Source: Candidatus Ornithospirochaeta avicola
GTDB lineage: Bacteria > Spirochaetota > Spirochaetia > Sphaerochaetales > Sphaerochaetaceae
Assembly: GCA_019113245.1 (NCBI GenBank)
Contig: DXHU01000020.1
Location: forward strand, 1-64,000
Reading direction: 5' to 3'
DNA: 64,000 nucleotides
Position 1 is the stretch's first letter, and the number at the start of each line of letters is the position of its first letter. Made by a program: the position numbers and the translations under genes. The notes under the pieces were generated by a model. That model was not told the DNA's origin. It saw only the letters and a list, made by a program, of their open reading frames with translations, and did no database searches. Below, one piece after another: positions 35,514-63,672 of the stretch.

Positions 35514-36226
35514 AAGACCTCCCTTATAACCTCATCTCTTTTTATTGATGCAAAATAGCTTCTGCAAGGAGGCTGAGCTGCAATAACCTCAGCAATTGCA
35601 AGATCCGATGCTTTTTCTGCCTTGTTGAATATTATAACTGAATCTGATGAAGTCTCTTTTTTCTTCAGCAGGCCCTCTGGGTCAGAAAAATATTTAGCAA
35701 GATATCTTTTGTCAACTATTATCTCACTCTCTTCTCCGAAGGCAACAGTACATGATTTCTCAAACACGGCATCAAGACCCATTACAGCAATGAGAAGATC
35801 ATTTTTATCTAATATTACAGGATCTCTTTCTGTGTGCCATTTAATCGGCAGTCCCCTAGATCCATCTGCCTCTGCTATAATCACATCATAGCGTTCTAGA
35901 AGCACAGAAAGCACCTCAGGACGCGGAGAAACTGCCTTCTTTATGTCCATTTGCGTAGTTTCAGCGTAAAATACACTCTCACCCTTTTTCGCTTTGTGGG
36001 AAAGCACGTCTTTTTCTTTTGTGTATACATAATCTGTCAGATAGTCATGGAAAAGAGGATTTGCAAGCTTGACTGTTGTAGTGACAAGGACAGAAAGATC
36101 CTTCTTCCTCAGATATGAGCCCAGATTTTCCAAGAGGGTTGTCTTTCCTCCACCTCCTGTGATCGAAATCCTGATTTTATCTTTTTTCTCAATATGATTT
36201 GAATAAAGCGTTTCAAAAAGTCTCAT
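35510..36226 (-). CDS. yqeC: Selenium-dependent hydroxylase accessory protein YqeC
   Basis: This 238-residue protein matches YqeC, found with selenium-dependent molybdenum hydroxylases. A P-loop, ISITGGGGKTTLLENLGSYL, lies near residue 20, followed by VLVTTTVKL. IIAEADGSRGLPIKWH is the family signature near residue 120. It is probably a nucleotide-dependent maturation factor; its reaction is unknown. It heads the yqeC-yqeB-proA-proB unit and is divergent from a cation efflux gene. Start taken as ATG 36226; a TTG two codons upstream is possible. Confidence 0.9.
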   Translation of the reverse strand: MRLFETLYSNHIEKKDKIRISITGGGGKTTLLENLGSYLRKKDLSVLVTTTVKLANPLFHDYLTDYVYTKEKDVLSHKAKKGESVFYAETTQMDIKKAVSPRPEVLSVLLERYDVIIAEADGSRGLPIKWHTERDPVILDKNDLLIAVMGLDAVFEKSCTVAFGEESEIIVDKRYLAKYFSDPEGLLKKKETSSDSVIIFNKAEKASDLAIAEVIAAQPPCRSYFASIKRDEVIREVL

Positions 36227-36298
36227 CAGCAAATATTATAGCCCAACTTCAACATATTTTCTTGTTTCTTTTTCCCAAGATGGCTAAACTTCATTTTT

Positions 36299-40971: not shown

Positions 40972-42174
40972 TCACATTATTCTTTTCTTTTCCTTTAAAA
41001 GAAGCTCCTGAAGCTTTGAACTTGGGCTCTTGAACTTCGAGAGGAAAATCATTGCAGCAATGACATACGGCTTGTAGCTTGCTTCCTTATAAAGAGGAAC
41101 AAGATATCTGTCGAATACGGATGCCTCGACCTCTCCTTCCTTACAGGAAACACCTGTTATGTCTGCAGGCAGGCAGTGCATGTAAAGAGCCTTTCCGTCT
41201 TTTGTAGTCTTCATAAGCTCTTCTGTACATGTCCAGTTCTTGAACTTGGCATTGTTCTCAAGACATCTCTTCTCAAGATCCTTAAGCTCATCAAACCTTC
41301 CTTCTCCTACAAGATTGGTTCTCTCTTCCATCACAGCAAACGGAGCCCATGACTTCGGATATACGATATCTGCGTCCTTGAAAGCTTCTTCCATGCTGTT
41401 GACTCTCTTGTATGAGCCGCCGCTTGCCTCAGCATTCTTCTTGGCAATCTCCTCAACTTCTCCCATCACGTTATAGCCTTCCGGGTGAGCAAGCACGACA
41501 TCCATTCCGAATCTAGTGAACAGTCCGATTACTCCCTGAGGAACAGAAAGCGGCTTGCCATATGAAGGGCTGTATGCCCATGTCATGGCAACTTTCTTGC
41601 CCTTAAGATTCTCTACCCCGCCAAAATGATTAATCACATGAAGGAGGTCTGCCATGCACTGTGTAGGATGATCGATGTCACACTGAAGATTAACAAGAGT
41701 CGGTCTCTGCTCAAGAACACCGTCGCGGTATCCTTCCTGAACAGCCTCACTTACAGTCTTCATGTAGGTGTATCCCTTGCCGATATACATATCGTCCCTG
41801 ATACCGATTACATCAGCCATGAATGAGACCATGTTCGCTGTCTCTCTGACTGTCTCTCCATGAGCAATCTGAGAAAGCTTTTCATCCAGATCCTGAACCT
41901 CAAGGCCAAGAAGATTGCATGCACTTGCAAATGAGAATCTTGTTCTTGTTGAGTTGTCGCGGAAAATGCTGATTCCGAGTCCTGAATCAAAAACCTTGCT
42001 TGAGATATTGTTCTCTCTCATGCCTCTGAGAATCTCTGCAACCTTGAACACAGCAGCAAGCTCATCATCTGTTTCCTTCCACGTGTGGAAGAAATCATTG
42101 AGGTACATGTTATTTGTATCGAGACTGCTCAGTTCTTCAATTAATTTCTTGATTTCTTCAATGCTTTTTGACAT
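40972..42174 (-). CDS. ygeW: YgeW-type carbamoyltransferase-like protein
   Basis: This 400-residue protein matches E. coli YgeW closely along its whole length. FRDNSTRTRFSFASACNLLGL is the carbamoyl-phosphate site, IAHGETVRETANMVSF follows, LVNLQCDIDHPTQCMADLLH is the HPxQ-type motif, and MHCLPADITGVSCKEGEV the C-terminal motif. It is an ornithine/aspartate transcarbamoylase relative whose substrate is not ornithine; it is tied to purine or ureide nitrogen breakdown. The ATG at 42174 has GGAGG five bases upstream. It follows the selD cluster on the same strand with a 77-base gap. Confidence 0.95.
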   Translation of the reverse strand: MSKSIEEIKKLIEELSSLDTNNMYLNDFFHTWKETDDELAAVFKVAEILRGMRENNISSKVFDSGLGISIFRDNSTRTRFSFASACNLLGLEVQDLDEKLSQIAHGETVRETANMVSFMADVIGIRDDMYIGKGYTYMKTVSEAVQEGYRDGVLEQRPTLVNLQCDIDHPTQCMADLLHVINHFGGVENLKGKKVAMTWAYSPSYGKPLSVPQGVIGLFTRFGMDVVLAHPEGYNVMGEVEEIAKKNAEASGGSYKRVNSMEEAFKDADIVYPKSWAPFAVMEERTNLVGEGRFDELKDLEKRCLENNAKFKNWTCTEELMKTTKDGKALYMHCLPADITGVSCKEGEVEASVFDRYLVPLYKEASYKPYVIAAMIFLSKFKSPSSKLQELLLKEKKRIM

Positions 42175-42224
42175 TCTGTCCTCCAGATTCAGCATAGCAT
42201 GAGAGATGCCTTATTACAAGGAAA

Positions 42225-42251: not shown

Positions 42252-43268
42252 TCAGAAATAGATTGTTTTATCTCTTCTTCTGCTGAATGTTCCAATGATT
42301 CTAGCCGGACTTCCGAACTCAGCTATGAAAGAAAGGGCATCCTCTTCATTCATGGCAAGAGCAAGTCCTCCTGAAGTCTGTGGATCAAAGAGAATATCCT
42401 CTTCTTCCCTTTTAAGTCCGCTTCTGTTTTCCACCTTATCCTCAAGATACTCACGGTTTGAATATGCACCTGATGGAATAAAGCCGAGTCTTGCTGCATC
42501 AATTGCTTCTTTTATATAAGGAACTGAAGAAAAATCAAGATCAAAGGAAAGGGATGAAGAGCTTGCCATTTCATAGATATGGCCTAAAAGAGAAAATCCT
42601 GTTATATCAGTTGCGGCATGCACATCGTATTTTATTGCAATGTCCCTGGCCCTCTTATTGAGAGTTAGCATGCTTGAAAGAGCTTCCACTTTTGAAGAGG
42701 AAGAACACTCATCTGCCTTGGATGCCATGTTTATGATTCCTACCCCTATCTTTTTCGTAAGCACCAGGACATCGCCATCATGTGCACCGCAGTTTCTCCA
42801 GAACCTGTCTTTTTGGGCAAATCCCGTGACAGCAAGGCCGAATTTTATGCTCTCATCGCTTATCGTATGTCCGCCTGCAATCACAACCCCGGCTTCCATT
42901 GCCTTATCCCTTGCCCCCAGTATTATGTTCTTGAGGATGCCAAGATCCATGCAGGAAGGGAAAAGGGTTATATTCATCGCAACTGAAGGTTCTCCGCCCA
43001 TGGCATATATATCAGAAATGGAATTTGCAGCACTGATTGCTCCGAATGTATACGGATCATCGGCAACAGGGGGAAAGAAATCTACAGTCTCTATCAGAAC
43101 CCTCCCATCTTCAAGATCATAGACAAGAGCATCATCGCTTGTCTCAAAGCCCACAAGCAGATTCTCTTTTCTTTCCATCTTTATTGAAGAGAGCACCTCT
43201 TCAAGCTTTCCAACTGGAAGCTTTGCCGCGCATCCTGAAGTCTTTACTAGTTTTGTAAGCTGTACCAT
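42252..43268 (-). CDS. selD: Selenide, water dikinase
   Basis: This 338-residue enzyme makes selenophosphate from selenide and ATP. The active-site segment is KTSGCAAKLP near residue 12; here the key residue is Cys, not selenocysteine, and Lys follows. Other SelD signatures are DALVYDLEDGRVLIETVDFFPPVADDPYTFG, IYAMGGEPSVAMNI, VIAGGHTI and DITGFSLLGH. No selA, selB or tRNA-Sec is seen in the window, so it probably serves the labile selenium cofactor of molybdenum hydroxylases. It overlaps the DUF3343 gene by 22 bases. Confidence 0.95.
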   Translation of the reverse strand: MVQLTKLVKTSGCAAKLPVGKLEEVLSSIKMERKENLLVGFETSDDALVYDLEDGRVLIETVDFFPPVADDPYTFGAISAANSISDIYAMGGEPSVAMNITLFPSCMDLGILKNIILGARDKAMEAGVVIAGGHTISDESIKFGLAVTGFAQKDRFWRNCGAHDGDVLVLTKKIGVGIINMASKADECSSSSKVEALSSMLTLNKRARDIAIKYDVHAATDITGFSLLGHIYEMASSSSLSFDLDFSSVPYIKEAIDAARLGFIPSGAYSNREYLEDKVENRSGLKREEEDILFDPQTSGGLALAMNEEDALSFIAEFGSPARIIGTFSRRRDKTIYF

Positions 43269-43492: not shown

Positions 43493-43674
43493 AGCATTCC
43501 TTCTTCTTTTATTTCCACAGCATATCCTGTCGCCTCAGCATAACGCTTGACGTTCTCCTTGCTTGCAACATTGTCAACAAGGATATCAATTCCATCCTTG
43601 TTTTCTTTTAAAGCCTTCTTTGCCATTATCACCGGCTCAGGGCAGCTTAAGCCTTTCGCATTATATTCATTCAT
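43462..43674 (-). CDS. TusA/YedF-like sulfur or selenium carrier
   Basis: This 70-residue protein is a stand-alone TusA (SirA) domain. The family motif Cys-Pro-x-Pro is present in LSCPEPVIMAKKAL near residue 10. YedF proteins of selenium clusters usually have a second C-terminal domain, which is missing here. The Cys would carry a persulfide or perselenide. AGGAGG lies 7 bases before the ATG. The gene overlaps the YedE-like gene by 8 bases. Confidence 0.88.
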   Translation of the reverse strand: MNEYNAKGLSCPEPVIMAKKALKENKDGIDILVDNVASKENVKRYAEATGYAVEIKEEGMLWRLMIREQS

Positions 43675-44758
43675 TTTCTTTCCTCCTGTTCTTTATAGTT
43701 ACAGTTGCGGCAATAAGGAAAAGAACCGCGATGAGAATAATAAGAACAACCTTTCCTCTCAATGACGGGCCTCCTATGCTTTCAGCGCTTGCAGCTGATG
43801 ATGCAAGTGAGAAATTATGGGCAAATGCCGCTCCTATGAAAAATCCAAGTGTTGATATAGCACTGTCAGAGTTTCCCTCTCCTGCAAGAATGAGCTGCCT
43901 TAGCGGACAGCCGCCTATGAGGACAGAACCGAAGCCAACAGCATATAAACCGAGAAGATTCCATAGCTGTGCCTGATGAGCAACGCTCTGAGAGGAAAAA
44001 CCAAGCTTAAAGGTGCCTGTTAACAGAGAGAACACAAGATTGAAGATGAAAACAGAAAGCAGAGCAAAAAGGAGCGTAAAGTCCTTTATAAGGAATGTAT
44101 CCCTTATTCCTCCTGCAAAACACATTCTTGATTTCTGTGCGCATGCTCCTACAGCAAGGCCTGCAAGAAGCGAAAGAAAAACCGGAGCTCTCATTGATCC
44201 CGGACCGGAGGTGCTGAATGCCAGAATGGAAGGAAAAGCTATGAGAATTACAAAGAATACTATATTTATGAGGCTGATTGCACTTCCTTCAAGCGCATTC
44301 TGCTTTTCAGCTCTTCCAAGAGAGAACCCGGCATTGAGGAATAAGCATCCTGTGAAGATTCCGAGAATGAATCCGATAAGCCCTACAAAGGCGTTTAAAT
44401 CCCCTGCAGAAAGACGCAGCACCATGCGTAGCGGGCAACCGAGGAACACCAGAGCACCCACAGCTACAATAAAGCCTATTGCAAAGCGAAGGAAAGGAGA
44501 ACTGCCTCCGCGAGGCCTGAATTCGCCCGTAATAAGAGAAATTGCAAAAGATCCAAGCACAAGGCCGATTATCTCGGGGCGCATGTACTGGACAGTCTGT
44601 GTGCTGTGAAGCTTCACTGATCCTGCGATATCCCGGATGAAGCATGCGATACAGAATCCCATGTTCCCAGGGTTGCCAAAATAAACGAGAAGAGTTGAGA
44701 ACAAAGCCACAACAAGACCGGTGAGAAGCAAAAGTATTTTATCTTTCTTTAAGCTCAT
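43667..44758 (-). CDS. yedE: YedE-like selenium/sulfur transport membrane protein
   Basis: This 363-residue membrane protein has about ten hydrophobic segments and belongs to the YeeE/YedE family. Two copies of the Gly-Cys-Pro-Leu-Arg motif occur, in LGCPLRMVLRLSAGD (near residue 105) and GGCPLRQLILAGEG (near residue 280), along with CFIRDIAG and CFAGGIRD. This doubled Cys layout is that of the selenium-associated YedE proteins. It probably moves a thiosulfate- or selenium-type compound across the inner membrane. It heads the yedE-tusA-DUF3343-selD operon and is divergent from the cysteine desulfurase. Confidence 0.88.
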   Translation of the reverse strand: MSLKKDKILLLLTGLVVALFSTLLVYFGNPGNMGFCIACFIRDIAGSVKLHSTQTVQYMRPEIIGLVLGSFAISLITGEFRPRGGSSPFLRFAIGFIVAVGALVFLGCPLRMVLRLSAGDLNAFVGLIGFILGIFTGCLFLNAGFSLGRAEKQNALEGSAISLINIVFFVILIAFPSILAFSTSGPGSMRAPVFLSLLAGLAVGACAQKSRMCFAGGIRDTFLIKDFTLLFALLSVFIFNLVFSLLTGTFKLGFSSQSVAHQAQLWNLLGLYAVGFGSVLIGGCPLRQLILAGEGNSDSAISTLGFFIGAAFAHNFSLASSAASAESIGGPSLRGKVVLIILIAVLFLIAATVTIKNRRKENE

Positions 44759-44817: not shown

Positions 44818-45951
44818 ATGAAACGCATCTATCTGGACAACAGCGCTACAAGCTTTCCAAAAGCTCCCCACCTTGCAGAAAAACTCAGAGACTATGTTTT
44901 AAACGATGATGGAGCAGTTAACAGGACATATTCTGAAGCCTCAATAAAGAATCTTGAGATGATTGCAGAGCTGAGAGTAAAGCTATGCCGTTTTTATAAC
45001 GGGCCATCCGATGAATGCGTAATATTCACCCATACCATAACAGAAGCTCTCAATACACTTATAAATGGCTACTTTTCAAAAGGCGATCATATCATAATCT
45101 CCCCCTATGAACATAATGCGGTATTAAGGGCTCTGACACTGCATGAAATTGAGTACTCACCTTTGCCCCTGTGCGAGAACAACAGAGTCGACACAGCATC
45201 TGCAGAAAGCCTGATAAGAAAAAACACAAAGGCAATAATCTGCACGGCAGTATCAAATGTGAATGGAAGCATAGTTGATTTAAAAGCACTTGGAGAAACA
45301 GCATCAAAGCATAGCCTGAAATTCATCGTTGATACTGCTCAGGCAAGTCCATATATTGACATAGACATGAAGAGGGACAATATAACTGCACTTGCATTCA
45401 CAGCCCATAAGGGATTCATGTCAATTGAAGGAAGCGGTGGATTCATAATCCAGAAAGGAGAGGAGAAAAACATTAGAGTGCTTATCGCCGGAGGGAGCGG
45501 AAGCGACAGCGGCAATCCTTATATGCCTGAAATGCTTCCGGATAAATTTGAAGCAGGAACATTCTCAACCCCTTCTCTCTTCTCATTCTCTTACTCACTT
45601 GATTATGTATTATCCCATCTTGATGAGATAAGGAAAAAGAGCAAGGAGAATACGGAGTATTTGAAGCAGGCACTGATGAGGATAAAAGGAATAAAAGTTG
45701 TTGAAAGCGGAAATGAGGAAGATATCATTCCTCTCATTTCAGTAACATCTGAAAAGGATTTATCATTAATTGCACTCTCTCTTTCTGAAAAATGCGGAGC
45801 GGAAGTGAGAGTGGGGATTCACTGCTCACCCCTTGCACATAAGGCACTTGGCACATACCCTGAAGGTACTCTGCGCTTTTCACCATCGTGCTTCACAGCA
45901 AAGGAAGAGCTTGATGAAGTAATAAACGCGTTAAAGGAGATAGCAGGATGA
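44818..45951 (+). CDS. Cysteine desulfurase family protein of selenium clusters
   Basis: This 377-residue class V PLP enzyme belongs to the EF2568-like branch seen beside selenium-dependent hydroxylase genes. It opens with IYLDNSATSFPKAP; the PLP Lys is in FTAHKGFMSIEGSGG (near residue 200), and the reactive Cys is in VGIHCSPLAHKALGT (near residue 340). It probably removes sulfur or selenium from (seleno)cysteine and hands it to a carrier. It overlaps the XdhC-like gene by 4 bases. It lacks a ribosome site and may be leaderless. Confidence 0.92.
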   Translation: MKRIYLDNSATSFPKAPHLAEKLRDYVLNDDGAVNRTYSEASIKNLEMIAELRVKLCRFYNGPSDECVIFTHTITEALNTLINGYFSKGDHIIISPYEHNAVLRALTLHEIEYSPLPLCENNRVDTASAESLIRKNTKAIICTAVSNVNGSIVDLKALGETASKHSLKFIVDTAQASPYIDIDMKRDNITALAFTAHKGFMSIEGSGGFIIQKGEEKNIRVLIAGGSGSDSGNPYMPEMLPDKFEAGTFSTPSLFSFSYSLDYVLSHLDEIRKKSKENTEYLKQALMRIKGIKVVESGNEEDIIPLISVTSEKDLSLIALSLSEKCGAEVRVGIHCSPLAHKALGTYPEGTLRFSPSCFTAKEELDEVINALKEIAG

Positions 45952-47422: not shown

Positions 47423-50302
47423 TTATTTTATCTTTCCTAGTTCTCTGAGTATCTTCTCAGGCGTTATAGGCCAGCTCCTTACATGAGCACCGCATGCATC
47501 TGCTATGGCCATTGCGATAGCAGGCGCTGCTCCGTTTGTCGCTATCTCACTGATACTCTTTGCTCCAAATGGTCCGTAATCATCACAGACATCGACAAAG
47601 TCTGAGATGAAAATAGGAGGAACCTCATCCACCATCGGAACGCCGTAGGATGTAAAGTCATCTGTAAGACACTTTCCGTTTTTGTCTATGACAAGATCCT
47701 CATAAAGCGTATGACCGATGCTCTTCAAGGCTGCACCGTACATCTGGCAGAGTGCAAGCTCCGGGTTTATAGGAGTTCCGCAGTCCTGGATTGCAACAAA
47801 CTTCTCAACTTTCACCTCGCCTGTGTTCACATTTACCAGGACCTCAGCAAAATGAGCACCGTAAGGAACAGCAAAATTCGGTGTGGTGAAACATCCCTTT
47901 CCTGTTATTGCCCCGCGTCCTGCTCCAGAATATGCCTCATGCGCGATTTCACGGAATGTAAGAACTTTTCCGCTTTTCCTGCTCACGACTTTTTCCGGCC
48001 ATTCAAGCTCCAGGCTCTCTTTGCTCTCACCCATCTGCAAGGCAGCCTCAGATAAAAGATTCTCCTTCAGATTCTTTGCCGCAAGAAGGCTTGCGTTTCC
48101 TGAGAAATATGTTCCGCTCGATGCATAAGCTCCTGTATCAAAAAGACATGCATCGGTATCACCAGAGACAACAGAGACCCTCTCAAGAGGCATCATCAGT
48201 ATTTCAGATGCACACTTTGCACTGATTGTATCAAGTCCTGTTCCAATATCCGCACCGCCTGAGAGGACAAGCACAGAACCGTCTGTGAGAATCTTCATTT
48301 CAGCATTGGAGTGATCCAGGCCAGGCAGTCCTGATCCCTGCTGAATCGGGGCAAAGCCCTGACCCCTCTTCCACTCAGAATTCTCATCATTCTTTTTCTT
48401 GCCCCATCCTATCAGACTGGCACCCTTATCAAGGGCATCAAGCAATCCGCATGATCCGACAGGAACGACAACACCTTCTCTTCCCTCTCCCAGACCCTTG
48501 AGGATTTCAAGCATGTAGCCGCGCTTTACAAGATTCTTCTTTGCCAGTTCAAGCGGATCCATACCTATCTTCTCAGCCAGCTCTCCGAGAGCAGAAATTA
48601 TTGCAAAATATCCTTTTGGAGCTCCATAGCCCTGATATGCTCCTGTTGGAGGAATATTTGAATAATATGTTGTGAGATCATAGTACATGTTCTCTACTGC
48701 AAAAAGTGGAAGAGTCTTGCTCGATGCATTCATCGGCACTGTTAGACAGTGGTTTCCGTACGGTCCGGTATTTGCTCTCACATCCATGTAAATCGCATTA
48801 ATCTTTCCATCCATTGTGGCACCCATCTTTACCCTTATTCTCATCGGATGACGGGTGGAGTTTGCATGAAATTCCTCTGCTCTTGTGTTACGGTAGTAAA
48901 TGCTTTTGCCGGTAATCCATGTAAGATAACCGCACAAATCCTCTACAAGGATATCCTGTTTTGAGCCATAGCCTCCGCCGACACGCTCCTTTATCACATG
49001 CACTTTGTGCTCATCAATCGAGCACACCCAAGCAACTATTCGTCTTACATGGTATGGAACCTGAGTGGATGCATGTATGATAAGGCGGCCGTTTTCCATT
49101 CTGGAAAAACACACATGGGGTTCAAGCGGTGTGCACTGCACCTGGCTTGTCTGGTAAGTCTGGTCCACAATGGCATCGCTTTCATCAAATGCCTTCTCAA
49201 CATCCCCGATTCCGCCATGGGCTCCTGCGGCAATATTGTGACGGATATCTGCATGAAGGGGGAACTGATAAATCACTTTGCCATCCCTCTCATCACAAAT
49301 TCGGTTGTACTCATCAAGATTATCCGGAGCACCTGAAACATACTCAACCTTCCCGTTATGGACCAGAGGGGCACCCTCTGCCATTGCCTCTTCGACTGTA
49401 AAGACAGCATCAAGAGGCTCATAGGTTACCTTGATAAGGCTCAAAGCATGTTCGGCAATCTCTTCATTTCGAGCAACAACGGCGGCAACTCTGTCACCGA
49501 CATGACGCACCTTGCGGTTTATAAGCTTCCTGTCATACGGGCTTGGCTCAGGATTTCCCTGCCCTGCCTGCATGTAATACACATCCGGAACATTGAAGCA
49601 TGTGAGTATCTTGACAACTCCATCAAGCTTTTCTGCCTCTTCTGTATCTATGCTCTTTATATATGCATGTGCATAAGGGCTTCTTAAAATCTTGAGCACA
49701 TAGGATGAGGGAAGCACTTTGTCTTCAGTAAATACTTTCTCACCTTTCACAAGTGCAGCGGCATCTATCTTTGTCTTTGCCTTGCCGACAAAACGCATTT
49801 CATTTCTAAAGGACGGAGAGACCTTACTCCTATATTCTCCCCACTTCCTCTTTTCCTGCACAAGGCGCACTGCGAGGAAGAAATGCTCATATCCTGCATC
49901 TCGGATGAAAAGCCCTGAAAGAGCCTCTTTGACATCATCTTTCGTTGCATCCGGCTTTCTTTCAAGGAGATTGGTAATGACAAGGGCCACAGCTGGTGAG
50001 TTGTATGCGCTCTGGACAACTCCGGATGCAATCATGGCCTCCTGAACATCATTTATTTTTCCTCCAAGAGAAAGGCTCTCTGCAGTAAATACTTCCTTAT
50101 TCATCACACGGGAGGCGACAATGAGATTTGAATACACACACCTGCCGTCAACTATTACAGTATCTGATCCTGTAAAGCCTTCCGCATCATCGCTATCCCT
50201 TACTGACGCACAGCCAAGGCGGTAAAGGAGATTTCTAAGTCTTTCATCCTCCCTTGCCTCCACATTCATGTTCTCGCCATTAAGTCTGAAGATGAGATTC
50301 AC
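47423..50302 (-). CDS. xdhD: XdhD-type molybdenum-binding hydroxylase subunit
   Basis: This 959-residue protein matches E. coli XdhD (956 residues) end to end. The first ~150 residues have the shape of a [2Fe-2S] ferredoxin plus helical domain, but the cluster Cys are absent (the loop reads SDDAEGFTGSD), as in E. coli. The Mo-domain motifs follow: GGGYGSKQDILVE, RANTGPYGNH, GAYQGYGAPKGYFA, GGADIGTGLDT, and the active-site Glu region GPFGAKSISEIATNGAAPA. It is proposed to form a complex with YgfM and YgfK and to depend on selenium. It starts with GTG behind GGAGG and overlaps the FAD gene by 4 bases. Confidence 0.93.
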   Translation of the reverse strand: MNLIFRLNGENMNVEAREDERLRNLLYRLGCASVRDSDDAEGFTGSDTVIVDGRCVYSNLIVASRVMNKEVFTAESLSLGGKINDVQEAMIASGVVQSAYNSPAVALVITNLLERKPDATKDDVKEALSGLFIRDAGYEHFFLAVRLVQEKRKWGEYRSKVSPSFRNEMRFVGKAKTKIDAAALVKGEKVFTEDKVLPSSYVLKILRSPYAHAYIKSIDTEEAEKLDGVVKILTCFNVPDVYYMQAGQGNPEPSPYDRKLINRKVRHVGDRVAAVVARNEEIAEHALSLIKVTYEPLDAVFTVEEAMAEGAPLVHNGKVEYVSGAPDNLDEYNRICDERDGKVIYQFPLHADIRHNIAAGAHGGIGDVEKAFDESDAIVDQTYQTSQVQCTPLEPHVCFSRMENGRLIIHASTQVPYHVRRIVAWVCSIDEHKVHVIKERVGGGYGSKQDILVEDLCGYLTWITGKSIYYRNTRAEEFHANSTRHPMRIRVKMGATMDGKINAIYMDVRANTGPYGNHCLTVPMNASSKTLPLFAVENMYYDLTTYYSNIPPTGAYQGYGAPKGYFAIISALGELAEKIGMDPLELAKKNLVKRGYMLEILKGLGEGREGVVVPVGSCGLLDALDKGASLIGWGKKKNDENSEWKRGQGFAPIQQGSGLPGLDHSNAEMKILTDGSVLVLSGGADIGTGLDTISAKCASEILMMPLERVSVVSGDTDACLFDTGAYASSGTYFSGNASLLAAKNLKENLLSEAALQMGESKESLELEWPEKVVSRKSGKVLTFREIAHEAYSGAGRGAITGKGCFTTPNFAVPYGAHFAEVLVNVNTGEVKVEKFVAIQDCGTPINPELALCQMYGAALKSIGHTLYEDLVIDKNGKCLTDDFTSYGVPMVDEVPPIFISDFVDVCDDYGPFGAKSISEIATNGAAPAIAMAIADACGAHVRSWPITPEKILRELGKIK

Positions 50303-54569: not shown

Positions 54570-55784
54570 TTATTTGTCAAGCTCGTACACAAGGCGTGTA
54601 TAGAACTCTGCACAGATCTGTAAATCGTCTATCCTGTTAATCTCATTCGGTGCATGTGCCTGAGCCTCATCTCCCGGTCCGAATCCGATTGCAGGAATCT
54701 TGTGTCTGCCTGTAGTTGCAACAAGGTTGGTGCTGAATGTCCACTTGTCGACAACAGGCTCCTTGTCAAACAGCTCTTCATAGCTGTGAACAGCGGCAAC
54801 GACAAGAGGATGATCCTTATCCAGCTTCCATGTCGGGAAATAAAGCTCCTGAGAATAAGGCTTTTCGGTCCAGCCCACCTTCTCGTAATCAGGCATCTCG
54901 ACAATGATGTCCTCTGGCTTGTCCCCTGTTGCCTCTGCAACATATTTTCTGACCTGGCTTATTGCAAGATCAGCATCCTCGCCCCATGTTAGACGGCGGT
55001 CGATATAGAGCATAGCATAATCTGGGACAGCGCACTGGGACGGTCCGTGAACATCAATCTGGCTTACTGTACATGTTCCTTTTTTGAGGAAGTTCTCCTC
55101 ATCAGGCTGAAGGTCATTGTTCAGCTTCTCGATTGCAAGGGCGGCACGAGCGGCCTTATATGCTGCCGAGACTCCCCTTTCAGGAGCAGATCCATGGCAG
55201 GAAATTCCCCTGAGGATGACCCTGATTTCCATTCTACCTCTGTGCCCTCTATAGATTCTGCAACTTGTAGGCTCTGTAGAGACAATCAGATCAGGCTTGA
55301 AGCCCTCCTCTTCAATCAGGTACTTCCAGCACATGCCATCGCAGTCCTCTTCCATTACTGTGAATGTAAAGTAAACGCTCAGATTGCCATCATAGCCCAT
55401 CTCCTTGAGCATCTTTCCTGCAGTGATCATACTTGCAGCTCCGCCTTTCTGGTCCGAAGCTCCCCTTCCCTTGACAAGAGTGTCTGTAATCTCACCTGAG
55501 AACGGGTCGAATGTCCAGTTCTTCATGTTTCCTACTTCAACTGTATCAATATGGGCATCGAATGCAATTGATTTCTTTCCGTTTCCGATTCTTGCAATAA
55601 CACTTCCAAGCCCGTCAATCCTGACTTCGTCAAATCCTGCATCCTCACACATCTTCTTAATCAGACGGCAAACATCCTCTTCCTTGCTGGAATAGCTTTT
55701 AGTCTTCACCAGCTGGCTGAGGGTCTCTGCTGCAAAATTTCTGTACTTTGCGCCAAGCTTCTTGATTTCTTCTGTCCTGTCCAT
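54570..55784 (-). CDS. ygeY: YgeY-type M20 family metallohydrolase
   Basis: This 404-residue cytosolic enzyme belongs to the M20/ArgE/DapE peptidase family. The first metal motif is IAFDAHIDTVEV (near residue 75) and GRGASDQKGGAASMI holds the bridging Asp. The Glu pair is in TVMEEDCDGM, the dimerisation-domain His in GISCHGSAPERG, and the final metal His in EAQAHAPNE. YgeY proteins sit in purine-degradation clusters and may hydrolyse a carbamoyl or acyl amino compound; the real substrate is unclear. AAGGAG precedes the ATG by 5 bases, and it starts 1 base after ssnA. Confidence 0.93.
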   Translation of the reverse strand: MDRTEEIKKLGAKYRNFAAETLSQLVKTKSYSSKEEDVCRLIKKMCEDAGFDEVRIDGLGSVIARIGNGKKSIAFDAHIDTVEVGNMKNWTFDPFSGEITDTLVKGRGASDQKGGAASMITAGKMLKEMGYDGNLSVYFTFTVMEEDCDGMCWKYLIEEEGFKPDLIVSTEPTSCRIYRGHRGRMEIRVILRGISCHGSAPERGVSAAYKAARAALAIEKLNNDLQPDEENFLKKGTCTVSQIDVHGPSQCAVPDYAMLYIDRRLTWGEDADLAISQVRKYVAEATGDKPEDIIVEMPDYEKVGWTEKPYSQELYFPTWKLDKDHPLVVAAVHSYEELFDKEPVVDKWTFSTNLVATTGRHKIPAIGFGPGDEAQAHAPNEINRIDDLQICAEFYTRLVYELDK

Positions 55785-55785
55785 G

Positions 55786-57105
55786 TCAACTCCTTATCTT
55801 ATCAGCACGCTTCCAGACTTTTTCTGCCACTTCACGTGCTTTTCTGTATATTTCCTTCTCATCGAGGAAGCACATCTTTCTGTCTTCCATTACAAGATTT
55901 CCGTCAATTATGACTGACTCGACATTCTGAGAGCTCATTCCCCACACAAAGTGCGTGGCAAGATTTTCATTCTTCACCGGAGTCGGAGCATTGTAGTCCA
56001 GAATCACGAGGTCCGCCTTATAGCCTTCTTTGATCTGACCGGTTTTTATCTCGCCGCCGAAGGCTGATGACACAAGTTCATTTCCCCTTTCAAGCGCACT
56101 TACGAAATCTGATGGCCAGAACGGCCCCTTTGCGTCACGATGCTTGAAAAATCCGATTTTGAGCTCCTCAAACATATCTGCACCGCATCCGTCAGTACCT
56201 ATTACCAGCTTCTTTATCCTGTCAAGCTTTGTATTGTAGCCTGCCATGTTGTTCATGTTGCTTCTAGGGTTATGAGCAAAGAAGCATCCTCTTTCATTGA
56301 GCAGGTCTATCTCTTCATCAGAAAGATAAAGTCCGTGAACAAGGAGGCTGTTATCCCTCAGCAGATTATGGTCATCCAGCCTCTTTATTATGTCCTTATT
56401 ATAGAAGTGATGGCTGTAGACCTGGTCATATCTGTCTTCTGCAACATGTATGTGTATGCCGGCCTTTGTCCTGTCGACAGCATCTTCAAGGCCCTCCATG
56501 GCATACTCAGGAAGAGTAAATGGTGCATGAGCACCTATCATGCCGCGGACAAGGGGATCATTTTCTGTGCTGAAAAAGAACCTGATATTCTCATCAATGC
56601 CCTCACGCACTTCCTTTTCACCTTCATTCCTGTCAGTTACCTCGTAGCATGTTACGCCTCTTATTCCAACTTCCTTCATGCCTTTTTTGATTATATCAAG
56701 GCTTCCATTTATAAAGGATGGGGATGCGTGATGGTCCACTACTGAAGTGCATCCTGATTTTACAGCATCAATTGAACAAATTAAAGAAGAATAATATACA
56801 GCCTCCTCATCAAGAGCCCTGTCAAGACGCCACCACCACTCTTTCAGTATCTGGATTAAATCCGTCTGCGGGCCGCTTGATATAAGCATGCCGCGCGAGA
56901 GACCAGAGTAATAGTGATGATGCGAGCATACATTTCCTGCAATAAGATATTTGTCTTTTGCGTCAATTATCTTTTCTGCCTGCTCACAAAGCCCCTTTTC
57001 AACTTTCCTTATCTGGCCATTTTCAATCAGCACATCCATTTCTGGGCGCACAGAAAAAGATGGCATGAGATCTAAAAGCGTTACATTCTTTATGAGTATT
57101 TTCAT
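55786..57105 (-). CDS. ssnA: SsnA-type aminohydrolase
   Basis: This 439-residue enzyme is an amidohydrolase-fold protein of the SsnA family. NVCSHHHYYSGLSRGM (near residue 65) has the metal-binding His pair, IHVAEDRYDQ and LVHGLYLSDEEI give later His ligands, and VIGTDGCGADM the metal Asp. It is a relative of guanine and cytosine deaminases found in the ygfK cluster, so a purine-derived or hydantoin-like substrate is likely. ATG 57105 has GGAGG six bases upstream, which rules out the longer frame. One base separates it from ygfK. Confidence 0.93.
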   Translation of the reverse strand: MKILIKNVTLLDLMPSFSVRPEMDVLIENGQIRKVEKGLCEQAEKIIDAKDKYLIAGNVCSHHHYYSGLSRGMLISSGPQTDLIQILKEWWWRLDRALDEEAVYYSSLICSIDAVKSGCTSVVDHHASPSFINGSLDIIKKGMKEVGIRGVTCYEVTDRNEGEKEVREGIDENIRFFFSTENDPLVRGMIGAHAPFTLPEYAMEGLEDAVDRTKAGIHIHVAEDRYDQVYSHHFYNKDIIKRLDDHNLLRDNSLLVHGLYLSDEEIDLLNERGCFFAHNPRSNMNNMAGYNTKLDRIKKLVIGTDGCGADMFEELKIGFFKHRDAKGPFWPSDFVSALERGNELVSSAFGGEIKTGQIKEGYKADLVILDYNAPTPVKNENLATHFVWGMSSQNVESVIIDGNLVMEDRKMCFLDEKEIYRKAREVAEKVWKRADKIRS

Positions 57106-57106
57106 A

Positions 57107-60100
57107 TCAATCCTCCACAGGACCCAAAAGGTAATAATAGCTTGTGTAGATCTCATCAATGAGCATCTCCACTGTAGCATCAACGCCTTCAATCTTCACA
57201 AGTCCTTCTTTATCAAATCCTCCTTTATGAAGAACTCCGTCAATTCTCACCAGTATGCCATTCTCGTCCTGGCAGAAGCCGTTGTTGCTACTTTTTTCCA
57301 TATCCTCATATGAGGAGAAAATTGTGAATTTATCCCTGTACGGGGCGCCGGAGTGAGGACAGAATGTCGCACAGTTTCCGCACTCATTGCAATATGCATC
57401 GATGTGTACAATCTGGAACGGATCATCGAAAATCTGCCAGGAACGCATGTCAACTGCTACATTTGCACGGTTTGGACAGACATCAACGCATTTATTGCAG
57501 AAATAAGAGCATTCAAGGCAGCGCTCTGCTTCTCTCTTGAAGAAATCCATATCCTTGTATTCAAGGCTGTTTCTCATCTGGCTCTTCTTTTTCCTGAGTC
57601 TTGAGAAGTATATGTTCTCAGCCTTCTCAAGCTCTGCAATCTCCTCATCGCTCATCTCATCATCCAGATCATCTTCCTCATGATCACAGCCGCATGAGCA
57701 CTCATGTCCTTCATGCTCTCCTGAACATGTGCATTCATGATCAGATGAGCATTCATCTTCCTCCGAGTTCTCAATTTCCTCATATACAGCGCTTATTGCG
57801 CTTTCCACAGCATCCCTTGCGCTCTTTATTGCCCGGACAACGGAGGACGGACCTGTAAGGGCATCGCCGATTAAGAATACGCTCTCATCATCAGCTGAAT
57901 ATCCAAGGCGTGAAAGCTCATCCTCATCCGCAGTCTCTCCTATTGCAGAAATTACTGCACTTGCCTTGATTTCAACAGTCTCTCCGCTTCTTACAGGCTT
58001 CCTTCTTCCGCTTTCATCCTTTTCAGAAAGCACCATCTTATCTAGCGTCAGGATGCCATCGATGAAGCTGACAGGAGAAAGGAGGAAGGAAAATTCAACA
58101 TTCTCTTCTTTTGCAAGAGCAATTTCCTCCCTGTCGGCAGGCATCTCTTGCTCAGTTCTTCTGTAGCATATCCTTACGCTGTTGGATATGCGCTTTGCCA
58201 TACGGGAGGCATCCATTGCAGTATTTCCTCCTCCTATGACAACAACATCATCTCCAAGTGCAAGATTCTCTCCTGCCTTCATCTTTTTCAGGAAATCTAT
58301 TGCAGAGAGCATCATTCCATTTCCCTTTATTCCGCTTTCGCGTGATTTCTCTGCTCCTATTGCGACAAAGATGTAGCTATAGCCCTTTTCTTTCAGGCTT
58401 TTTACTGTTTCTGTGCTCTTATAGTTAATCGCAACTCCGTTTTCCTCTATGAAGCTCACATCCTTGTCAATTACATCCTGAGGAATCCTGAAGGAAGGTA
58501 TTGTCGATGAGACCACGCCTCCGCTTTTCTCTCCCTTCTCAAAGACTTCTGTTATGAATCCCGCACGGGAAAGAAAGTATGCACAGGCAAGACCTGCAGG
58601 GCCTGCACCGATGACAGCGGCCCTGTAGTCATCGCTCTTTTCGCTTTTCTCCCAGATTTCCTTCTTGTAATCTTCTGCTGCAACACTTGCCAGCTTCTTC
58701 TTGACATCCCTTATTCTGACAGGACCCTCATAATCATTTCTTGTACAGTGGTTCTGACAGTTATGATCGCATATCCATCCGGTGATGTTAGGCAGTGCGT
58801 TATCAAGATAGATTACAGCAAGAGCCTCCGAGAGCCTTCCTTCTCCTGCAAGCTGTATGTAGTCTGGGATCATCTGGTGAATCGGACAGGCAGAGACACA
58901 TGGTGCCACATAGCAGTCAAACATCTCCAAAGGTGTGCCTACCTTGACGCTGTTGCTGCCATGCACACTCTTGTTGAATATCCACTTCGGATCTCTTGCA
59001 TCCTGGCTGAGAGCCTCAAGAGCATCCACATCAATCCTGTCCTTTTTCCCGTAGCTGCTTTCTGCTATCTGAGCAATCTGAGCAATCTTCTGATACCCTC
59101 CAGGCTTGAGGATATCGCTTGCAATCGTCACAGGAGCTATTCCCGTCTCTATTATCCTCCTGATGTTCTGCGCACTTGCACCTCCAGAGTAGGAAATTGG
59201 AAGATTGCCGTCAAATTCCCTTTCAAGAATGGCTGCAAGTGTTATGCTTATAGGAAATAGAGCTCTTCCTGACATGTACATCTCAGCGCCGGGGAGCACT
59301 CCCTGATCATTTACTGCACCAAGAGTATTGGTAAGCTTTACCCCGAATCCCCTCTTCTCTTTTTCTGCAAGCGCAACAAGGCGGGTAAGCATGGCAAGAG
59401 CATCCTGATACTGCAAATCATGCGAGAACGTCTCTCTTTTCAAAGTGACATACGTATAGCCAAGATCATCAAGGATCTTTCTGACCCTCTCATAGCCAAG
59501 CAGTGTAGGATTGAGCTTTACAAACACATCCAGATGCTTTTCCTCAAGCATGTATGAGCAGATTCTCTCTATCTCATCAGGCGGACAGCCATGCATTGTC
59601 GAAATAGTGACTGACGGGGAAATAATGGCACTGATTCTGTCAATGTTCTTCAGCACATCTTTTTCCCTTCCTTCCAGCACTGTTCCTTCAAAAAGGCCAT
59701 CTTCAAGCTCCGCCTTCGCAATCTCGATGTATTGCCTGAAAAGCGGATTTTCAGATGAATCCATCATGCTGTTTATATACTCCTGCATCCTTTCATTCTT
59801 TATTCCCTTAAGGTCATAGCCGACTGACATGTTGAATATGAATGACGGTGCATTCCATTTCTCATCAAAGGCCATGTCCAGGATATGGAGGAAAACATAA
59901 GCCTTCAGATATTCATCATATGCCTTCTTGAGCGTGTACTCTGTGGACCATTCCACATTGTAGCCCTCATCTCTCATGTCAATACATGGCTTTTCAATCT
60001 CAAGCGTGTCCATGATCTGAACAGTCTTGAGCTCTATGAAGCGTGAGCCGGCAAGATATGCTGTGATTATGTTCTGTGCAAGCTGAGTATGAGGCCCAGC

Positions 60101-60274
60101 TGCAGGGCCGACAGGATTTGCGGCCTTCTGAGAAAACACATTGACGCTCAGATTCTTCTCACATTTAAAAAACTGTTCCTGGTTGAGAGCGAAAATGCTC
60201 TTCTGGTTTCTCAACTCTTTGAATGCTCTTTCTAGAAGCTCAGAAAAAGCCACGGGGCGCATTATATCTGACAT
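57107..60274 (-). CDS. ygfK: YgfK-type large iron-sulfur flavoprotein
   Basis: This 1055-residue oxidoreductase matches E. coli YgfK (about 1030). Residues 1-~440 are a dihydropyrimidine-dehydrogenase-like barrel (AANPVGPAAGPHTQLAQNI, SPSVTISTMHGCPPDE). A GltD-like segment follows with CVSACPIHQMIPDY (~454), then FAD loop AAVIGAGPAGLACAYF (~550) and NAD(P)H loop VVVIGGGNTAMDASR (~678). The C-terminus has Cys-rich CLECSYFCNKCVDVCPNR and CNECGNCATFCPH (~920-975) for two [4Fe-4S] clusters. An unusual acidic Cys/His-rich insert lies near 838-875. It was once called a selenate reductase subunit; it now appears tied to purine breakdown. ATG 60274 follows GGAGAG. Confidence 0.95.
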   Translation of the reverse strand: MSDIMRPVAFSELLERAFKELRNQKSIFALNQEQFFKCEKNLSVNVFSQKAANPVGPAAGPHTQLAQNIITAYLAGSRFIELKTVQIMDTLEIEKPCIDMRDEGYNVEWSTEYTLKKAYDEYLKAYVFLHILDMAFDEKWNAPSFIFNMSVGYDLKGIKNERMQEYINSMMDSSENPLFRQYIEIAKAELEDGLFEGTVLEGREKDVLKNIDRISAIISPSVTISTMHGCPPDEIERICSYMLEEKHLDVFVKLNPTLLGYERVRKILDDLGYTYVTLKRETFSHDLQYQDALAMLTRLVALAEKEKRGFGVKLTNTLGAVNDQGVLPGAEMYMSGRALFPISITLAAILEREFDGNLPISYSGGASAQNIRRIIETGIAPVTIASDILKPGGYQKIAQIAQIAESSYGKKDRIDVDALEALSQDARDPKWIFNKSVHGSNSVKVGTPLEMFDCYVAPCVSACPIHQMIPDYIQLAGEGRLSEALAVIYLDNALPNITGWICDHNCQNHCTRNDYEGPVRIRDVKKKLASVAAEDYKKEIWEKSEKSDDYRAAVIGAGPAGLACAYFLSRAGFITEVFEKGEKSGGVVSSTIPSFRIPQDVIDKDVSFIEENGVAINYKSTETVKSLKEKGYSYIFVAIGAEKSRESGIKGNGMMLSAIDFLKKMKAGENLALGDDVVVIGGGNTAMDASRMAKRISNSVRICYRRTEQEMPADREEIALAKEENVEFSFLLSPVSFIDGILTLDKMVLSEKDESGRRKPVRSGETVEIKASAVISAIGETADEDELSRLGYSADDESVFLIGDALTGPSSVVRAIKSARDAVESAISAVYEEIENSEEDECSSDHECTCSGEHEGHECSCGCDHEEDDLDDEMSDEEIAELEKAENIYFSRLRKKKSQMRNSLEYKDMDFFKREAERCLECSYFCNKCVDVCPNRANVAVDMRSWQIFDDPFQIVHIDAYCNECGNCATFCPHSGAPYRDKFTIFSSYEDMEKSSNNGFCQDENGILVRIDGVLHKGGFDKEGLVKIEGVDATVEMLIDEIYTSYYYLLGPVED

Positions 60275-60395: not shown

Positions 60396-60944
60396 ATGGT
60401 AGAAAAAAGGAAGTACTTGAAAGCCAGTCTTGAGCAGATTATCATGACAGCCGACACCTTCAGTTCCGGAAGTGCCGATGATGAGATAAAAAGACGGATT
60501 GACGAGATAATTGCCCAGGAGGCTCCGGTTATGAAGGAGCTTCTTGTAAAGCGCCTGATCAACAGCCTCAGCCTCTATAAGGCCGGCTCAATCATAGCAG
60601 AGCATATTGATGCACTGCTGAGCCAGATGAATTTAGATGAAGAGGATGATGTGTTTTATTCAGGGCGCGATGTGTCTTTCTTCCGTCCATCAAACGAGGA
60701 TGAAAACAATTTCCGCTATTCGTATCAGATTCCGCCTGTTGAGGCAGAGAATGCGATAATCTACATCTATGAGAACAACGGGAACAAATGCATGAAGAAA
60801 AAGGATGTACTTATCTCCTTTTCTTCTCTCATGGGATACCAGAGAAAGGGAAGCGAGGTGCGGTCCCTTTTTGAAAAGGCATTTGCGAAACTCAGGAAAG
60901 ACGGGAGGATCATCTCACGCTCATCTGGTTTCTCTCTGTCTTAA
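60396..60944 (+). CDS. Small DUF3320-like winged-helix protein
   Basis: This 182-residue protein seems to hold two copies of the DUF3320-type unit otherwise found at the C-terminus of large helicase-like proteins. The first copy is EAPVMKELLVKRLINSLSLYKAGSIIAEHI (residues ~42-71). The second is PPVEAENAIIYIYENNG...GYQRKGSEVRSLFEKAFAKLRKDGRII (~111-175). Such units look like winged helices and may bind DNA. It is divergent from ygfK, sharing its upstream region. There is no ribosome site, and a TAAAAT lies 8 bases before the ATG, so it may be leaderless. Confidence 0.65.
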   Translation: MVEKRKYLKASLEQIIMTADTFSSGSADDEIKRRIDEIIAQEAPVMKELLVKRLINSLSLYKAGSIIAEHIDALLSQMNLDEEDDVFYSGRDVSFFRPSNEDENNFRYSYQIPPVEAENAIIYIYENNGNKCMKKKDVLISFSSLMGYQRKGSEVRSLFEKAFAKLRKDGRIISRSSGFSLS

Positions 60945-61001: not shown

Positions 61002-62465
61002 ATGCTTATTAACCTGAGAAGACATGAAAAGATCATCAAGTCAAATGCGGCACGATGCAGGGAAAAGGGAATCCTGCTCCCGACTTTCCAGGAGATGATT
61101 CATCCAGAGACGATAGACAATGAGATTAAGGAAAAGCTTAAATCGGTCGGACTCTGGGATGTCAATCCTCTCAATCTATACAGAATCAACTGGCACAACG
61201 AAAGAAAGGAAAGCGGAGGACTGTTTTCATCTGTCAATTACATAGAAATTCCAAGGGAGATTACAGGCACCAAGGCCAGGATAATAGCTCTATGCGGAAA
61301 GTTCTTCCCATGCGGAGTCCATAAGGTCGGAGCAACCTATGCATGTTTAGCTCCGGCACTGGTTTCTGGAAACTTCGATGCCGTCAATCAGATGGCTGTA
61401 TGGCCAAGCACAGGAAACTACTGCCGAGGAGGCGCTTACAACTCTGCCCTGCTTGGATGCTCAAGCATCGCAATCCTTCCTGAAGACATGTCAAAGGAAC
61501 GTTTTGACTGGCTTAAAAGCATTGCAGGAGAGGTCATAGCCACACCTGGATGCGAATCAAACGTAAAGGAAATCTTTGACAAGTGCCATGAGCTTGACAG
61601 GGAAAGAGGAAAGCACATTGTGATTTTCAACCAGTTCGAGCAGTTTGAGAATTATCTGTGGCACTATGAGGTAACAGGAGCGGCTATAATTGAAGTGCTC
61701 AAGAACCTTGGAATCAAGAAGAGCAATGTAAAGGGCTATGTATCCAGCACAGGAAGTGGCGGAACCCTTGCCGCAGGAGACCACCTGAAGAGGGTTTATC
61801 CGAATATCAAGATAGGAAGCGGAGAAGCTCTGCAGTGTCCTACTCTCCTGAGAAACGGATTTGGAGGCCACAGAATAGAGGGAATCGGGGACAAGCATGT
61901 TCCATGGATCCACAATGTCAGGAACACGGACATGGTGCTCTCAATCGATGATGAAGACTGCATGAATGTATATCGCCTCTTCAATGAAAAGGATGGCCTG
62001 GATTATCTGAGAAGCTGTGGCGTGAGCGAGGAAAGCATCAGCGATCTCTCACTTTTCGGAATCTCTGGAATCGGGAACCTCCTTGCATCAATTAAGATGG
62101 CAAAGTACTACGAGATGGACGAAGCTGATGTGGTATTCACAATCCTGACAGACAGTTCTGTGATGTACACATCCCGCCTGGCTGAGCTGGAAGAGCAGAA
62201 AGGAGCATTTTCTGCTACAGAAGCAGCAAAGGTCCATGCATCTGCTCTCATGCATCAGGGCATCGACAATGCGCTGGAGCTCACATATTATGACCGCCTG
62301 AGAATCCATAATCTCAAGTACTACACATGGGTAGAACAGCAGGGCAAGACATATGAGGAACTCAACAGACAGTGGTATGATCCTACCTACTGGGCAAGGC
62401 TGCCTAAGATGACAAAGAGAATTGATGAGCTTATCAGGCAGTTCAATGATCTTGTAAGGCAGTAA
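61002..62465 (+). CDS. PLP-dependent fold-type II enzyme of unknown substrate
   Basis: This 487-residue protein resembles the beta family of PLP enzymes (cysteine synthase, threonine synthase). The likely PLP Lys is in CGVHKVGATYACLAPALVSG (near residue 109). VWPSTGNYCRGGAYNSALLG (near residue 140) has the phosphate or substrate Asn loop, and SSTGSGGTLAAGDHLKR is a second glycine loop. It has a long C-terminal part (~120 residues) ending in WYDPTYWARLPKMTKRIDELIR that I do not know. It is not a close YgeX or OrtB. AGGAGG lies seven bases before the ATG. It forms an operon with the next PLP gene. Confidence 0.75.
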   Translation: MLINLRRHEKIIKSNAARCREKGILLPTFQEMIHPETIDNEIKEKLKSVGLWDVNPLNLYRINWHNERKESGGLFSSVNYIEIPREITGTKARIIALCGKFFPCGVHKVGATYACLAPALVSGNFDAVNQMAVWPSTGNYCRGGAYNSALLGCSSIAILPEDMSKERFDWLKSIAGEVIATPGCESNVKEIFDKCHELDRERGKHIVIFNQFEQFENYLWHYEVTGAAIIEVLKNLGIKKSNVKGYVSSTGSGGTLAAGDHLKRVYPNIKIGSGEALQCPTLLRNGFGGHRIEGIGDKHVPWIHNVRNTDMVLSIDDEDCMNVYRLFNEKDGLDYLRSCGVSEESISDLSLFGISGIGNLLASIKMAKYYEMDEADVVFTILTDSSVMYTSRLAELEEQKGAFSATEAAKVHASALMHQGIDNALELTYYDRLRIHNLKYYTWVEQQGKTYEELNRQWYDPTYWARLPKMTKRIDELIRQFNDLVRQ

Positions 62466-62466
62466 T

Positions 62467-63672
62467 ATGAGATTTTCATATAAATGTACGACATGCGGCA
62501 GAGAGTACGAGACAGAAGAAATCATGTACCTCTGCCCAGAATGCGAAAAGAAGAATGACGGCAGGACCTTCAACTATGGAATACTTGAGGTCGTGCTTTC
62601 ACCTGCTGTGATAGAGGAATGCAGAAAAAAGGATACAGTGTGTTTTTCTGACTATTCTCCATACCCTGTTTTAAAGTGGGCAGAAGATGCCTTTCCTCTC
62701 CCCTCTACCCCGCTATTGAAAAACAGGAAGCTATCTGCACCAGGACTTGAAAACACTTTCTTCAAGCTTGACTCGCTTCTTCTCAGCGGATCATTCAAAG
62801 ACAGGGCAAGCTTCATGGTTGCGCTTCAGGCTCTAAGCTGTGGAGAGAGAAAAATCACGCTTGCCTCAACTGGAAATGCAGGAGCGGCAATGAGCGCAGC
62901 GGGCGCGGCTCTCGGTCTTGATATAAATCTCTTCGTGCCGGAAAGCGCACCTGTGAATAAACTCAAGCAGTCAATTTTATATGGGGCCAATGTGATACCG
63001 GTCAAAGGAAGCTATGATGATGCCTTTTCTCTTTCTATCGAGTATACAAAGCGCCATGGCGGAATAAACAGGAACACTGCATACAATCCCATGACGATTG
63101 AGGGAAAGAAGAGCGTTGCATTTGACCTATACAATCAGACAGGAGGAAGAGATATTGACTATATCTTCATTCCTGTTGGGGACGGATGCATATACTCAGG
63201 TGTAGTAAAGGGATTCAAAGACCTCATGAGGGCTGGAAAGATAAGAAAAATGCCGCGCTTCATATGCTGCCAGGCTGAGAAATCAAGAGCAATAAGTGAT
63301 GCATTCGCTACTGATGAGATGAAAGCATTCAGCGCAAGCACAAGAGCAGACAGCATAAGCGTTAATCTTCCTGCATGCGGACGGCTTGCTGTCAGCTACA
63401 TAAAGGAAACAGACAGCTGGACAACGCTTGCAAGTGAAGAGGAGATAAAGAGTGCCCAGATTCTTCTTGCATCCTCCGGCATTCTTGCTGAGCCTGCTGC
63501 TGCAACATCTTATGCATGCTATTTGAAAGACAGTGAGAAAGTGAGAAAGGAAAGCGGAGAAAATGCGCTTTCGCTCATCCTTATTACTGGAACAGGATTC
63601 AAGGATATGGCTTCATTTGATGATTTCATCCATATAAGGCCGTCAATCTCAGCACTTGATGATTTAGTATGA
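62467..63672 (+). CDS. Threonine synthase-like PLP enzyme with N-terminal zinc ribbon
   Basis: This 401-residue protein starts with a zinc ribbon (CTTCGREYETEEIMYLCPEC, Cys-x2-Cys twice). The PLP domain has STPLLKNRKL, the PLP Lys in LLSGSFKDRASFMVALQAL (near residue 118), ASTGNAGAAMSAAGAALGL and FIPVGDGCIYSGVV in the place of the glycine-rich phosphate loop. That order fits the class of threonine synthases with zinc ribbons, but thrC is at 14872, so another beta-elimination or replacement reaction is likely. It starts 1 base after the other PLP gene. AAGG is 7 bases before the ATG. Confidence 0.8.
   Translation: MRFSYKCTTCGREYETEEIMYLCPECEKKNDGRTFNYGILEVVLSPAVIEECRKKDTVCFSDYSPYPVLKWAEDAFPLPSTPLLKNRKLSAPGLENTFFKLDSLLLSGSFKDRASFMVALQALSCGERKITLASTGNAGAAMSAAGAALGLDINLFVPESAPVNKLKQSILYGANVIPVKGSYDDAFSLSIEYTKRHGGINRNTAYNPMTIEGKKSVAFDLYNQTGGRDIDYIFIPVGDGCIYSGVVKGFKDLMRAGKIRKMPRFICCQAEKSRAISDAFATDEMKAFSASTRADSISVNLPACGRLAVSYIKETDSWTTLASEEEIKSAQILLASSGILAEPAAATSYACYLKDSEKVRKESGENALSLILITGTGFKDMASFDDFIHIRPSISALDDLV

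Follow-up and report, generated by a model that had tools for sequence, protein, structure and literature searches.

The window analysed here is a stretch of 64,000 nucleotides from Candidatus Ornithospirochaeta avicola. On its minus strand the gene ygfK (57107-60274) encodes a protein of 1055 amino acids belonging to the yanthine / 2,8-dioxopurine reductase family, which scored 1226.5 bits against TIGR03315 (cut-off 835.3), with residues 2-1050 aligned to positions 1-1012 of the model. A Fer4_20 domain (58673-58918, residues 453-534) is followed by the FAD/NAD(P)H domain Pyr_redox_2 (57821-58624, residues 551-818) and by a C-terminal pair of Cys groups (57359-57520, residues 919-933 and 962-972), all on the minus strand; both Cys groups are invariant across the family of the window, and the mid-section of the protein matches the fold of the NfnA, DPD and GltD structures. 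The full-length score, the domains, the cluster cysteines and the uric acid pathway neighbours all identify the protein as YgfK.

The neighbouring genes of this pathway are also located on the minus strand. The ATG of ssnA, coding for an amidohydrolase (55786-57105; PRK07203, 528.8 bits, cut-off 444), stands one base past the ygfK stop codon, and it is followed by ygeY, an M20 hydrolase gene of the same pathway (54570-55784), and then by two sets of molybdenum-hydroxylase subunits, an xdhD-type molybdenum subunit (47423-50302; TIGR03313, 1175.9 bits, cut-off 1101.9) being encoded in this part of the window; ygeW, selD, yedE, yqeB and yqeC lie farther on. The ygeW product, a knotted carbamoyltransferase (40972-42195), scored 772.6 bits against TIGR03316 (cut-off 500). 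The locus represents the reductive uric acid pathway. The XdhD of E. coli converts uric acid to yanthine, whose reduction by YgfK, an enzyme with FMN, FAD and 4Fe-4S clusters, was observed only when SsnA was present (PMC12507026). The window protein shares with this E. coli yanthine reductase the domain order, the invariant cluster cysteines and the neighbours ssnA, xdhD, ygeY and ygeW. By eye, the N-terminal 2Fe-2S-like part of the XdhD-type subunit appears to be devoid of the usual Cys pattern. The source genome (1.5 Mb, 23 contigs) is 97% complete; the closest locus, with 95% protein identity, is assigned to an 'uncultured Spirochaetales bacterium', and the next-closest ones come from gut Spirochaetales and Spirochaetaceae MAGs, 'Candidatus Ornithospirochaeta' among these.

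The initial annotation had pointed to an acidic, Cys- and His-rich insert in this YgfK, and such a segment is indeed present: the hook core, CSSDHECTCSGEHEGHECSCGCDH (57680-57751, minus strand, residues 842-865), holds 6 Cys and 4 His in exactly 24 residues. It is embedded in an acidic stretch past the Pyr_redox_2 domain and ahead of the C-terminal Cys groups of the 4Fe-4S pair, so the proposed position between the NAD(P)H domain and these clusters agrees with the domain coordinates. Ten Cys and His residues were counted within 27 residues of the hook, compared with a maximum of 8 in 2000 shuffles of YgfK (mode 4) and a maximum of 6 in the other 54 open reading frames of the window; chance is thereby excluded as the source of this composition. 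A plus-strand reading frame over the hook site (57601-57858) was dismissed as an antisense shadow, since it is TTG-started and carries no gene-like signs.

The search for YgfK covered all 139 genomes of the family to which the window belongs, mostly gut-dwelling members of the Spirochaetota. The protein was found above the cut-off in 123 of them, and 119 C-terminal regions could be read, most of which contain one to five units close to [DE]-E-C-x-C-G-[HD]-H-H. A fuller pattern, [DE]-[DE]-E-C-[GST]-C-G-[HD]-H-H-[DE], was derived from 242 CxC sites, and local dialects of the unit such as CHCHDH and CGCHDHD also occur. The linker that runs from a conserved GPS motif to the first of the C-terminal Cys groups measures about 100-130 residues in most hooked copies and about 51-70 residues in most YgfK proteins outside the family. 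E. coli K-12 has a plain linker at this site, as the initial annotation had supposed, and the hook was likewise absent from many Enterobacterales, Endozoicomonas relatives, other Spirochaetota, Calditrichota, Acidobacteriota, Bacteroidota and two Bacillota, in an outside-family sample with few sequences from Bacillota and other phyla of anaerobes. Both the stalk and the Cys/His hook thus distinguish the window YgfK from the E. coli enzyme and from every outside-family YgfK sampled. No paper mentioning this insert was found in the open-access literature.

In a YgfK tree calculated with the linker excluded, hooked genomes stand on every main branch of the family, and the outgroup is entirely hookless. 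With the outgroup included the state of the hook requires 10 changes. This count is rough, since it comes from a FastTree gene tree in which some branches are long, and since scattered residues caused two hookless rows (G326 and G239) to be scored as Cys-bearing. The simplest history that fits these sequences is a single gain, basal to the family, followed by repeated losses of the cysteines. The losses would fall in genus g8, g4, most of g173, parts of g9 and g5, and g169/g170; close relatives such as G427, G359, G383 and G318 retain ygfK with the hook cysteines gone.

The conservation of the individual hook residues was followed in 32 close pairs by pairwise alignment. Cysteines were identical at 138 of 142 aligned positions and histidines at 147 of 163, compared with 567/734 for Asp and Glu, 385/506 for the other hook residues and 91% for the protein outside the hook; some of the pairs are interdependent, and the alignment favours Cys-Cys matches. 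Because of the latter bias those pairs whose hooks align with no more than one gap were tallied separately, and here 101 of 102 Cys and His positions were identical, versus 375 of 425 for the other hook residues. The hook of the window and that of its nearest relative differ by 9 synonymous and 7 nonsynonymous codon changes in 56 codons, against 157 synonymous and 40 nonsynonymous changes in the rest (1035 codons). From these retention counts and codon changes it follows that the hook drifts fast save at the metal-ligand residues. The sequence comparisons therefore indicate that selection maintains the cysteines and histidines, their neighbours evolving faster than the remainder of YgfK, and the view that the segment might show nothing but random low-complexity variation can be rejected. 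Synonymous codons are mixed in the hooks (TGC 219 and TGT 97; CAT 291 and CAC 125), hence the repeats are not merely recent copies at the DNA level.

An AlphaFold model of the window YgfK, built from 38 sequences (mean pLDDT 88.7), has a single stretch with pLDDT below 50, residues 842-872 (57659-57751, minus strand), which corresponds to the hook segment and bears out the flexibility ascribed to it at the outset. This predicted disordered segment is flanked by a first helix of 30 residues (57752-57841, minus strand, residues 812-841) and a second one of 22 residues (57584-57649, minus strand, residues 876-897). In the model of the hookless Morganella YgfK (mean pLDDT 89.7) the helices are limited to residues 837-854 (18) and 871-877 (7), with a short loop between them; the comparison therefore suggests that the insertion lengthens two helices and places the ligands at their end. 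We read the two predicted helices as a paired stalk. A search of the PDB with the consensus hook gave no match.

The module is carried by one further protein. In 41 genomes the strict motif CxCGHxH[HDEQ] gave 18 matches, which all lie either in YgfK or at the C-terminal end of a single TPR protein; the reversed pattern, used as a control, had no match. The degenerate pattern C-x-C-[GDHR]-[HD]-[HD] yielded 150 listed matches in the 139 genomes, that is 63 in ygfK, 20 in the TPR gene and 67 elsewhere; twenty of the latter were inspected, and 19 proved to be chance matches in short or wrong-frame reading frames and one a ygfK fragment. Verified matches are confined to these two proteins, YgfK and the unrelated TPR protein. 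The CxCGHxH pattern has no match in the source genome, because the units of the window hook have diverged. The TPR gene of the source genome (locus L295, G000:C23:85800-88200, from about C23:86267) ends in a Cys/His repeat tail that includes HHCCHEEEGREHHCHHDSENSEHHCCGHH. In the family this gene heads a conserved run, TPR-tsaE-tsaB-trxB. Its distance of 7-90 kb from ygfK on the same contig was considered as a sign of linkage and discarded, since with the fixed neighbours tsaE, tsaB and trxB it looks like general synteny.

The presence of selenium genes in the window made a selenium (or persulfide) carrier, which would load the selenium-dependent molybdenum hydroxylase system, one of the candidate functions of the hook. 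selD (42252-43268; TIGR00476, 356.6 bits, cut-off 125), a yedE-type selenium transporter gene (43667-44758; TIGR04112, 462.3 bits) and yqeB with yqeC, which mark the trait of selenium-dependent molybdenum hydroxylases (34719-36232; TIGR03309 and TIGR03172, both over the cut-off), are all encoded on the minus strand, and selA is absent from the source genome. The distribution at first sight favours such a role: all seven selD-less genomes with good assemblies (G359, G383, G427, G484, G485, G489 and G490) have at most one hook cysteine, versus 84 of the 96 selD-bearing genomes in the tree with two or more and 12 of 96 without. A hook common in selD-less genomes, which would have spoken against the link, was thus not seen in good assemblies; the six uncertain selD-less genomes with a Cys hook are all draft assemblies, in which selD is possibly just missing. 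However, selD requires only about five changes on the tree, the seven selD-less genomes stem from about three losses, and among four independent pairs one was concordant and three were uninformative, so no significant link between the hook and the selenium genes can be claimed. Moreover, the hookless genomes G471 and G488 possess selD though their near relatives lost it, and the enterobacterial YgfK is hookless although E. coli has selD. As a better proxy of the selenium cofactor trait yqeB was tried and rejected: it exceeds the cut-off in 126 of the 139 family genomes, is kept in hookless and selD-less ones and thus does not follow the hook. Repeats of His and acidic residues are not what a selenide carrier needs, and the older annotation of YgfK as 'selenate reductase' is unsupported by the biochemical work, which describes a purine reductase (PMC12507026). 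Taken together, these data make a selenium carrier quite improbable; of the metal- or chalcogen-binding role proposed initially, the richness in metal-ligand residues under selection stands, and the selenium link is unproven.

Two side observations belong to the selenium genes. The seven selD-less genomes named above are near-complete and keep both ygfK and yqeB; yqeB is expected to occur only together with selD. A protein of the cysteine-desulfurase family (44818-45951, plus strand), with 319 bits below the TIGR01977 cut-off of 377 and also similar to the selenocysteine lyase SclA, adjoins yedE and an XdhC-like gene, and it is a candidate selenium or sulfur donor.

The remaining alternatives differ in what they ask of the cysteines. 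An extra redox cluster, of Fe-S or other type, located after the FAD site and before the 4Fe-4S pair at the C-terminus, would be in line with the six cysteines of the window protein and with their place in the chain between the FAD domain and the clusters, but the number of cysteines in the hook region varies from 0 to about 20 among the orthologues of the family with no fixed spacing, the region is predicted to be disordered, and the hookless E. coli YgfK is active with reconstituted 4Fe-4S clusters (PMC12507026); the extra cluster suggested by the initial annotation is therefore extremely improbable. A structural zinc hook, in which metal shared between hooks would join two YgfK chains, or YgfK to SsnA or to the TPR protein, might explain why the ligands are predicted to stand at the tip of two helices which are long here and short in hookless YgfK, and why the same module is found on one other protein. 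On the other hand, one to five repeats and frequent loss are ill-suited to a fixed interface. The co-occurrence of the hook and the TPR tail (among 91 genomes 43 have both, 18 neither, 28 the hook only and 2 the tail only; Fisher 7e-5) is driven by two genera and disappears in independent pairs, and genus g8 has the TPR tail although its YgfK hook is gone. We regard this structural role as unlikely. Neutral low-complexity growth, whereby slippage would expand an acidic loop with Cys and His as tolerated passengers, could account for the quick shifts in copy number, for the repeated loss of the stretch and for the fast evolution of the hook residues other than Cys and His; it does not account for cysteines and histidines retained above their neighbours, for the mixed synonymous codons or for a module whose verified matches are restricted to two proteins, and it is held to be doubtful.

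The explanation which we prefer, and to which we would give an even chance, is that the hook is a flexible and disordered appendage under selection, added once by the family of the window, which binds transition metal and stores, buffers or hands it on. We infer metal binding from the set of ligands, i.e. Cys pairs, histidines and carboxylates. Together these might bind borderline metals, most likely Zn2+, with Ni2+, Co2+ or Cu+ as possible alternatives. Such sites would store, buffer or pass on the metal rather than catalyse: since the number of units varies and the enzyme works without the hook in relatives, storage or buffering is suggested instead of catalysis or a fixed interface. The nearest plausible client of the metal would be the adjacent SsnA, which was assayed alongside E. 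coli YgfK in 1 mM ZnCl2 (PMC12507026); this client is a guess from the adjacency of the two genes, and ssnA follows a hookless ygfK as well (G427). In a more specific version of the metal-binding appendage YgfK and SsnA might work as a coupled pair in which the stalk brings Zn2+ to SsnA in the metal-poor gut, the TPR module might be a second exchangeable reservoir in the cytoplasm, and both might serve as a dispersed substitute for metallothionein; we consider this version distinctly unlikely. The sequences point to a selected, lineage-specific metal-ligand insert in an otherwise standard and known enzyme, which is moderately surprising.

Comparable metal-ligand sequences are known in other systems. 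SlyD ends in a disordered tail of His, Cys, Asp and Glu, which differs from one SlyD protein to another and binds up to 7 Ni(II) (PMC7055735). This nickel metallochaperone resembles the hooked YgfK in carrying such a stretch, variable across orthologues, on a folded enzyme, but the SlyD tail is attached to an FKBP isomerase, whereas the hook, known from sequence, is an internal insert of regular E-C-x-C-G-H units in an Fe-S flavoenzyme; a domain search detected no FKBP isomerase domain in the window YgfK. The His-rich Hpn stores nickel in Helicobacter (PMC4671568). Hpn and Hpn-2 of the gastric Helicobacter species are similar to the hook as lineage-restricted, repeat-rich metal-ligand sequences which arose inside one bacterial group; unlike the hook, Hpn proteins are small, free-standing and His/Gln-rich, with proven nickel storage. 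In Rad50 a zinc hook with one fixed CxxC per chain has a structural role, joining dimers at the tip of a coiled coil. Metal ligands between two helices are common to Rad50 and YgfK, but the YgfK hook has many ligands in a disordered loop.

The uric acid pathway recently described for gut bacteria depends on YgfK for the reduction of the ring. That this enzyme bears an arm of metal ligands which is under selection and spread throughout the clade suggests a tie between purine breakdown and the supply of metal in these spirochaetes. The family provides a natural series of one enzyme with zero to five units. Should the module serve to store metal, it would appear to have two carriers, recruited from unrelated proteins. 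As a lineage trait the hook is separated from the selenium system behind the historical label of YgfK.

The region upstream of ygfK has minor features of its own. A plus-strand gene (60396-60944) encodes a protein of 182 amino acids that is similar to the C-terminus of large helicase proteins of anti-phage type (DUF3320, end of the ProA model), and a homologue stands at the equivalent position in locus L318. It is followed by two genes of PLP enzymes (61002-62465 and 62467-63672, plus strand), which are divergent from ygfK and whose position is conserved across the family; the product of 61002-62465 is cysteine-synthase-like, under every curated cut-off, and may replace YgeX.
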